This document shows positions 13,045 to 41,490 of a stretch of DNA of 64,000 nt, piece by piece. The position numbers and the translations under genes were made by a program. The notes beneath the pieces were generated by a model, which saw nothing but the letters and a program-made list of their open reading frames with translations, had not been told where the DNA came from and did no database searches. Within the stretch, counting starts at the first letter, position 1, and every line of letters starts with the position of its first letter. Source of the DNA: Tissierellales bacterium (GTDB lineage Bacteria; Bacillota; Clostridia; Tissierellales; VENL01); contig JANQLB010000127.1 in assembly GCA_028280805.1 (NCBI GenBank), positions 1 through 64,000 of the forward strand, written 5' to 3'.

Positions 13045-13203
13045 GTTTTCACCACCTTTATATATTAAATATATATTAAAATAATTATATTCATCAAAAC
13101 GCATAGACTGCCTATCTAAATACTTATAGTTGTTTACTCTTAACTTTAAAAACAGAAATACCAGAATTGTAAGCTGTCAAATAAAAGGATAGCAGCTACT
13201 TAA

Positions 13204-36482: not shown

Positions 36483-36667
36483 AACATCCCGGGGTGCCGT
36501 TGCTCTTATAATTCACGCCCGCTTCTTAAGCAGGTGGGTACTCTGTCATAGGCTTCTGACGTCCTTTTATAGTTAAGGCATGTCATTAGTACATGAACTC
36601 AAGTTCCCGTATAATCTATGTCGGTTGAATTATCAAGTGCTGACGAACATCTCAGGAATGTTTCTTG
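36483..36667 (-). ncRNA. ssrS: 6S RNA
   Basis: Minus strand 5' CATTCCTGAGATGTTCG... and 3' ...ACGGCACCCCGGGATG closing arms, central GAAGCCT and CCCACCTGCTTAAGAAGCGGG element, own TATAAT box just upstream and terminator downstream. Confidence 0.82.
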
Positions 36668-36678: not shown

Positions 36679-36806
36679 CTACAGAATCTGTAATTTTAAA
36701 AACACTTTAACATATTATAAACTTAAATATCTATGATTTACTAATGTTATGTAAACATTAATCCGTTTTTCTAATTATTTTGATACTTGACAACTTCCAA
36801 AAATGA

Positions 36807-37037
36807 AGAACATGACGGCTGAATGAGTATAGGCCTCCTCCCATTGGAAGCCATTCCATACAATCATATAATTTATCCGATAGCTTACAATTCTAATACT
36901 CCCGCTTCAAAGCTATGAGTAAAGAATTGCATAGTATTCGGATAAGACGACCATGCGTTCAGATGGAGTTAAAACTCCACCTGAACTGAGTCTTACTTTA
37001 TATAAACTATAATATTGTATTTCAACCGTCATGCTCT
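36807..37037 (-). ncRNA. Candidate structured ncRNA, unassigned (raiA-like size and context is one hypothesis)
   Basis: 17-bp closing stem 36807-36823/37021-37037 with two G-U pairs only on minus strand; 14-bp hairpin 36957-36986; stem 36832-36838/36846-36852; crossing helices in 36873-36945. Confidence 0.7.
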
Positions 37038-37056: not shown

Positions 37057-38853
37057 TTAATTAATTTTATTCAAACTTTGCGTAATTCCTAAATTTACTA
37101 TCTCGTTAAGCTCAAGTTCATTAATGGTTTCTTTTTTTAATAGTCTTTCTGTTAATTTATCTAATAATTGTTTATTGTCTTTTATAATTCTTTTAGTGTC
37201 ATCATAAAGTTCTTTTAGTAATGACTTAACTCTTTGTACTATTTCTATGTTTGATGTTATATTATAGCTTGTTAATACATCATAACTGACTAATCCGGTT
37301 TCATCATCCATTCCAAATCTGCTTATCATAGCTAAAGCCATATCTGTAGCTTTCTGTAAATCATTTGATGCCCCTGTTGTAATTTTATCTTTTCCAAAAA
37401 CAATTTCTTCAGCTGCCCTGCCACCTAATGCTGTCATAATAGTATTCTTAATTTCTTCTTTAGTTCTATACATTTTATCAGGTGGAATATTCATACTAAA
37501 TCCCCCTGCTCCCTTTGTACTAGGAATTATGGTTATCTTTGTAACTCTATTTTGAGGTGAAACTAATTTTGTAACAAGTGCATGTCCCGCCTCATGGTAA
37601 GCAGTAATATTCTTTTCATCTATAGATACAACACTTCTATCCTTCTTTTCTTCTCCTGCTATAACAGTATAAAACGCCTTATCTATATGCTTCATAGTAA
37701 TATTTTTTTCATTTTCTTTAGCTGCAAGCATGGCAGATTCATTCATAAGGCTTTCAAGTTTAGCTCCGCTAAAGTATACTGTCTGATAGGCTACTTGGTA
37801 TAAATCAACATCTCTTGCTACAGGCTTATTCTTACTATAAAGTTTTAATATCTTATATCTTGCATTTACATCAGGAAGTCCTACTTCAATTTGTCTATCA
37901 AATCTACCCGGTCTTAATAATGCATCGTCAAGAGTATCTATTCTATTTGTAGCAGCAATTACAATTATTCCCTCATTGCCCTTAAATCCTGACATTTCAG
38001 TTAATAAAGCATTTAAAGTTCTATCGCTTTCATCGCTACCACCACTTGCTAATGCTCCTTTTCTTTTTTTTCCTAAGGCATCAATTTCATCGATAAATAT
38101 CACACATTTACCTGCTTCTCTAGCTCTTTTAAAAAGGTCTCTAATTCTACTAGCTCCAAGACCAGCATAGACTTGAATGAAATCTGAGCCTGTTACAGCA
38201 AAGTAGGGAACATTAGCTTCACCGGCTAAAGCCTTAGCAAGCAGAGTTTTACCTGTCCCTGGCGGACCATATAACATAACCCCTCTAGGCATTCTCGCTC
38301 CGTATCTTTCATATTTTTCTGGATTTTTAATAAAATCCACTAACTCTTTAAGACTTTCCTTTGCTTCTTGATTACCAGCTATTTCTCCAAAGGCAATTTT
38401 TGATGAGTCATTTCCTTCACTTTCTATACTTGACATTTTCGTCATCTCTTTTTCAGCAGATTTAGCCGAATTTTTATTCATAAAAAAAGCTATCCCTACA
38501 AATGCCCCAATTATGAGCACAAATGTTAATATATCTTTAACAGTAGTGTTTCCGCTACTTTCCTTTACAATAATATCTGCCATAAGAAGTTTTTCTTTAA
38601 AACCCTCAGTCCTAGGATTATCAGTGATGAAGTATTGTCCATCTTTAAGTATGCCGTTTATTTCTTCATTATCACTTAAAAAAACCTTCTGTACATCATT
38701 AGTTTCAACTTTATTTAAAAAATCAGTATATGAAATGTCAACATAGTCTTCACTGCCGTTAAGGAAATAATATGATCCTAAGCCTATTAATACTATAGCT
38801 ATAAAAACTATGATAGCAATTTTCTTTTTCCTGCTTAGATTCATAAAACTCAC
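37057..38853 (-). CDS. ftsH: ATP-dependent zinc metalloprotease, FtsH-like
   Basis: Walker A GPPGTGKT, SRH, HEAGH zinc site, N-terminal TMs. Confidence 0.93.
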   Translation of the reverse strand: MSFMNLSRKKKIAIIVFIAIVLIGLGSYYFLNGSEDYVDISYTDFLNKVETNDVQKVFLSDNEEINGILKDGQYFITDNPRTEGFKEKLLMADIIVKESSGNTTVKDILTFVLIIGAFVGIAFFMNKNSAKSAEKEMTKMSSIESEGNDSSKIAFGEIAGNQEAKESLKELVDFIKNPEKYERYGARMPRGVMLYGPPGTGKTLLAKALAGEANVPYFAVTGSDFIQVYAGLGASRIRDLFKRAREAGKCVIFIDEIDALGKKRKGALASGGSDESDRTLNALLTEMSGFKGNEGIIVIAATNRIDTLDDALLRPGRFDRQIEVGLPDVNARYKILKLYSKNKPVARDVDLYQVAYQTVYFSGAKLESLMNESAMLAAKENEKNITMKHIDKAFYTVIAGEEKKDRSVVSIDEKNITAYHEAGHALVTKLVSPQNRVTKITIIPSTKGAGGFSMNIPPDKMYRTKEEIKNTIMTALGGRAAEEIVFGKDKITTGASNDLQKATDMALAMISRFGMDDETGLVSYDVLTSYNITSNIEIVQRVKSLLKELYDDTKRIIKDNKQLLDKLTERLLKKETINELELNEIVNLGITQSLNKIN

Positions 38854-41380: not shown

Positions 41381-41403
41381 CCTTTATAAATATAATAATA
41401 TCT

Positions 41404-41485
41404 AGGCAACCTGGCAATCATAGGAACTGCTTTCCCTTAGACCCATAGCTTTGCGACCCTGTTTTTCAACAGGTGTGCCATTTTC
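41404..41485 (-). promoter_or_regulatory. c-di-GMP-I (GEMM-I) riboswitch aptamer
   Basis: Minus strand GGCACACCTGTTGAAAAACAGGGTCGCAAAGCTATGGGTCTAAGG...CTATGATTGCCAGGTTGCC matches consensus (GAAA tetraloop, CGCAAAG, GGGTCTAA, TATG, GGTTGCC). Confidence 0.94.
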
Positions 41486-41490
41486 TAAGT

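Follow-up and report, generated by a model that had tools for sequence, protein, structure and literature searches.

A bcr1-like dispersed repeat nested between ftsH and 6S RNA in a Tissierellales genome and its structured relatives across Clostridia

Introduction

The repeat bcr1 is reportedly specific to the Bacillus cereus group. It carries a TTTAT motif, and its copies number 11 to 130 in each genome (PMC6542083); bcr repeats are MITE-like and often lie within untranslated regions (UTRs) (PMC3446304). A comparable layout is known from the pneumococcal BOX element, in which fixed ends enclose variable internal modules; BOX copies are intergenic and foldable and are sometimes located beside or between structured RNAs (PMC3049150). 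Among mobile elements, the Y1 (HUH) transposases of the IS200/IS605 family read subterminal hairpins, with a guide 5' of the hairpin foot (PMC6006769).

We analyzed a 64,000-nt stretch of DNA from a Tissierellales bacterium (contig JANQLB010000127.1; here, the window), in which a strongly folded interval of approximately 230 nt lies between ftsH and 6S RNA. An earlier note had described this interval as a single ornate, pseudoknotted non-coding RNA reminiscent of the raiA class. On the sequence comparisons reported here, its core very probably represents a bcr1-type mobile DNA repeat that is non-autonomous, and not a gene for a dedicated RNA. Strong folding of an intergenic sequence can thus stem from a nested mobile repeat and need not signal a new RNA gene.

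Results

Composition of the folded interval

The 230-nt unit is a composite, in which a mobile repeat (36872-37001) is nested within a separate outer stem. ftsH and 6S RNA flank the folded interval, and all three are on the same strand. The features of the window are as follows, where R1 is a covariance model built from 20 copies aligned with MAFFT and A3 is an alignment, fitted to R1, of 59 copies obtained from searches of the order and the class.

13093..13185, plus strand: degenerate second repeat copy (R1, 23.9 bits, E 0.013; right end with 3 mismatches)
36483..36661, minus strand: 6S RNA, the downstream neighbor (Rfam RF00013, 81.4 bits)
36807..36871, minus strand: 3' arm of the outer structure with a small hairpin at 36832-36852, from joined-arm folding
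36872..37001, minus strand: bcr1-like dispersed repeat of 130 nt, including both terminal pentamers (R1, 134.3 bits)
36872..36876, minus strand: right terminal pentamer ATAAA, from pentamer counts in 59 copies
36873..36945, minus strand: long hairpin of the right domain, with a TTATCCG/CGGATAA foot, CAATTCT/AGAATTG and an apical stem (helices 3-6 of A3)
36957..36986, minus strand: left-domain hairpin GTTCAGGTGGAGT/ACTCCATCTGAAC (helix 2 of A3)
36997..37001, minus strand: left terminal pentamer ATAAA, from pentamer counts; the target according to the yifB insertions
37002..37037, minus strand: 5' arm of the outer stem, split off by the repeat (the joined arms fold without it)
37057..38853, minus strand: ftsH, the upstream neighbor, an ORF of 598 aa

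Positions 36800-37045 fold at -100.7 kcal/mol on the minus strand and at -74.1 kcal/mol on the plus strand (z scores of -11.4 and -7.2, respectively, relative to shuffled sequence). Every helix that the earlier note listed is present, as are the G-U pairs that it ascribed to the minus strand (two, one and one in the closing stem, the 14-bp hairpin and the 7-bp stem, respectively). The start of the element about 20 nt past the ftsH stop agrees as well, and its non-coding character is borne out by the lack of any listed ORF of at least 60 aa within it. The proposed membership in the raiA class is not supported: a cmscan search of the interval with all 4,227 families of Rfam 15, at gathering thresholds and at E ≤ 10, returned obvious chance matches only, none of them a covariance-model match to raiA or to another Rfam family.

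When the outer arms are joined without the repeat, they fold with z scores of -8.2 (minus strand) and -4.7 (plus strand), and when one ATAAA is kept between them, the site is located in the AT-rich loop of a hairpin (DNA parameters). A second repeat was considered for the outer stem and dismissed, as the stem is single-copy, with no other copy in the window's own genome (G000) or in 60 relatives. The stem could be either an old insertion or a lineage-specific, terminator-like structure of ftsH. The two further family members searched (G001 and G002, with 6S confirmed) retain the ftsH-6S order, and their ftsH orthologs are 76% and 72% identical, respectively. Neither the repeat nor the outer stem was found in the ftsH-6S gap of these two genomes. 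A TTGTCAAGTAT motif at approximately 36775-36805 (minus strand) of the window, between ftsH and 6S, is common to G001 (L185, after ftsH), and the sequence preceding it differs between the two. Elsewhere in the window, a c-di-GMP-I riboswitch was identified at 41402-41489 (minus strand; 81.6 bits), and the degenerate repeat copy (13093-13185, plus strand) is in the upstream region adjoining the start of a LacI-type regulator.

Occurrence of the repeat in Clostridia

A search of G000 and 59 relatives revealed that the inner part recurs and not the whole 230-nt unit. By pattern search, right ends are present at about 46 sites in G000 (22 forward and 24 reverse; 0 for a control pattern), so the core is a dispersed repeat and the description of the unit as one ornate non-coding RNA is not upheld. 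Screening with R1 identified the repeat both in the order (19 of 250 genomes) and in the class (30 of 394 genomes, from 23 of 224 genera), the latter amounting to approximately 8% of the Clostridia sampled. Copies were counted up to a ceiling of 13 per genome in the order search and of 8 in the class search; most genomes are drafts, and the copy numbers outside G000 are lower bounds. Two query sequences yielded no phage match, and the sequence of the element was not found in the literature searched. Several contigs of G000 (i.e., C18, C19, C24, C96 at both ends, and C125) end in or near repeat copies, several of which contain modules (see below), suggesting that the assembly breaks at these copies.

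A two-domain fold supported by covariation

The 20 MAFFT-aligned copies revealed a two-domain fold, consisting of a short hairpin followed by a long one. In this model-free alignment, 21 of 43 pairs have two-sided changes. The 43-pair structure was drawn after these copies had been viewed, and the strongest test of the fold is therefore provided by the copies found later. Across the 59 copies of A3, two-sided changes are present in 35 of the 43 pairs, 89.8% of cells are paired, and the covariation score is 0.393, compared with 0.168 for shuffled alignments and at most 0.095 with the partners slid. The left-domain hairpin (helix 2) has two-sided changes in 11 of 12 pairs and is paired in 92.7% of cells, and the helices of the right-domain hairpin (helices 3-6) are paired in 86 to 94% of cells. 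The structure that had been proposed from the letters of a single locus is thus real, being kept and covarying in relatives, and it represents a family with a covariation-supported fold and no Rfam entry.

The earlier note had also listed three mutually crossing pairings. Their complementarities are real, and the conserved fold includes one of them (CAATTCT/AGAATTG). The other two are possible in few copies, all of them from G000 (ATAGCTT/AAGCTAT in 5 of 59 copies, allowing G-T pairs; AATACT/AGTATT in 4 of 59). The pseudoknot is thus not conserved in the 59-copy comparison, and these two pairings are local alternatives.

Ends, insertion sites and evidence for mobility

Comparison of 54 copies showed sharp ends (AT[AC]AA ... 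GGATAAA in most) between unrelated flanks. Among 59 copies, the left pentamer reads ATAAA in 35 and ATCAA in 16, and the right pentamer reads ATAAA in 45. The ends (ATAAAGTAAG and CGGATAAA) are direct pentamers; terminal inverted repeats are absent, and a classical MITE, which is defined by them, was therefore rejected. Of the 54 copies, 48 are intergenic in a simple ORF test, and the orientations of the neighboring genes (17, 16, 9 and 7 cases) reveal no orientation bias.

Two loci point to insertion events. For one copy in G034, the sister species G004 has the corresponding empty site, with 88% identity over both flanks; this alignment crosses species, and the bases of the empty target have therefore diverged. 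A yifB-like frame in G556 is broken up by two copies and has stops when filled. Deleting both copies while leaving one ATAAA at each site yields 250 continuous residues, so a single insertion corresponds to the element plus one ATAAA. This yifB-like gene is also fused in frame to a Y1 transposase fragment (L223, 1435-2930). A self-splicing intron was rejected, because the only clear gene interruption among 75 copies is that by the two yifB copies, in a gene already fused to Y1. At three loci of G034 and G004 (L148, L150 and L162), the last 33-34 nt of the element are tandemly duplicated just past its right end.

Comparison with bcr1 and BOX

With a G556 sequence as the query, matches were obtained on plasmids of Clostridium beijerinckii, C. 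estertheticum and B. cereus-group bacilli. The copies of the Bacillus type were located on 39 plasmid records, 37 of which are from Bacillus, and a related copy is present on a Pseudalkalibacillus plasmid. The Bacillus copies are about 156 nt long, have ATAAA at both ends, and are matched end to end by R1 (E 7.8e-7 for L300). Conversely, a model built from nine Bacillaceae copies only (R2) recovers the window copy with identical coordinates (36872-37001; E 1.5e-4) and further clostridial copies with E values as low as 7e-15; the E values of both models are approximate. Given their ends, length and hosts, we take the TTTAT-ended repeats of the B. cereus-group plasmids to be bcr1 almost certainly.

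With bcr1, as represented by these plasmid repeats, the clostridial repeat shares what characterizes that type, namely, terminal ATAAA (TTTAT on the other strand), many dispersed intergenic copies, and homologous sequence and two-domain fold; the left end ATAAAGTGAAACTT is even identical in some clostridial copies. It differs in its core length (130 versus about 156 nt), in its diverged hairpin arms, in the ATCAA left pentamer of one clostridial genus, in the internal hairpin modules of some hosts, and in the hosts themselves, which are Clostridia rather than the B. cereus group reported for bcr1. The clostridial repeat thus appears to be a relative of bcr1, its closest known element, and not bcr1 itself. 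The restriction of bcr1 to the B. cereus group, a claim about distribution and not about structure, is contradicted by related copies on the Pseudalkalibacillus plasmid and in Clostridia (30 of 394 genomes). Reciprocal models now link this supposedly group-specific repeat to a family present in about 8% of the sampled Clostridia genomes.

Several copies in G000, G001 and G052 contain internal hairpin modules of 39-40 nt (AAGTGA...TACTT). Among 15 distinct modules, 6 of 17 pairs have two-sided changes, and the covariation score is 0.275 versus 0.079. In these three genomes, the number of modules between the fixed ends varies in the manner of the BOX element of Streptococcus pneumoniae, which is likewise intergenic; the window copy has zero modules and does not show this feature. 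The likeness is one of layout alone: BOX has terminal inverted repeats, and no sequence kinship was seen.

Discussion

Possible routes of movement

The ~230-nt interval separating ftsH from 6S had been read as a gene for a dedicated non-coding RNA, pseudoknotted and raiA-like. The strong minus-strand fold and the G-U pairs, which are present as described, would suit such a gene, but its core is repeated about 46 times across the genome, the unit is absent from the ftsH-6S gap of two family members, no Rfam match exists even at E 10, and the crossing pairs occur in G000 copies only. This reading is largely refuted and now highly improbable, and a dedicated RNA function is not needed for the explanation. 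The repeat could still act as RNA, either by moving through an RNA intermediate or as a UTR element that alters the decay of neighboring mRNAs. bcr repeats are often in UTRs (PMC3446304), the internal modules covary as hairpins, and G-U pairs outnumber A-C pairs by 133 to 82 overall. Only helices 1, 2 and 5 show a clear excess, however, and helices 3, 4 and 6 have none. Single-stranded DNA also tolerates G-T pairs and could equally explain the minus-strand G-U bias. Furthermore, copies are about equally sense and antisense to their neighbors and thus have no consistent transcript, and we consider an RNA role unlikely.

Movement as DNA may follow either of two routes. Action at TTTAT by a site-specific recombinase or a DDE transposase, as proposed for bcr repeats, would fit the pentamers at either end and the inconsistent presence of a Y1 partner; copies without terminal inverted repeats and a conserved single-strand fold that would have no obvious role make this route rather doubtful, if less so than an RNA role. 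Transposition by a Y1 (HUH) enzyme is a guess from analogy, to which we give tentative preference. The repeat resembles IS200/IS605 and REP elements in its subterminal hairpins, its short terminal target motif and its lack of terminal inverted repeats, and its complementarity to the terminal motif may be guide-like (PMC6006769). It differs from them in having no consistently linked Y1 gene and in being longer than REPs, and its likeness to the IS605 left end is limited to one apical hairpin. TTAT pairs with the terminal ATAA in most copies (helix 3); this may be merely the hairpin foot, and a left-end guide was not identified. No autonomous partner of the repeat was found. Among the Y1 loci scanned, a Y1 gene adjoins a copy in three cases. 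A linked Y1/RAYT gene was rejected, as the closest homologs of one such Y1 (L240, L241, L243 and L255) are without adjacent copies. No Y1 or TnpB gene was found in the draft genome G034, which has at least 13 copies. TnpB with an omega RNA was likewise rejected, because the copy-rich G034 and G004 are without a TnpB match.

The copy between ftsH and 6S probably inserted at an ATAAA of a stem-loop that already stood there, within its AT-rich loop. Such an insertion would have left the outer stem closed, which would be why the helices looked nested. The fold would be maintained because the mobilizing enzyme recognizes it, in all likelihood in single-stranded DNA, as Y1 transposases do with subterminal hairpins, and TTAT 5' of the long hairpin complements the terminal ATAA as a guide of that kind would. 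Upon read-through from ftsH, the copy would form a hairpin-rich 3' extension.

A broader and more speculative view, which is improbable as it stands, would make bcr1 one branch of a structured mobile-repeat family spanning Bacilli and Clostridia that gains covarying modules and moves by an undescribed, possibly RNA-dependent route. The many natural variants among the clostridial copies provide material for finding the mobilizer of such repeats. In L217 (G508), a different GC-rich repeat (at approximately 910-1100 and 2380-2600) flanks a Y1 gene that has a bcr1-like copy at its 3' end.
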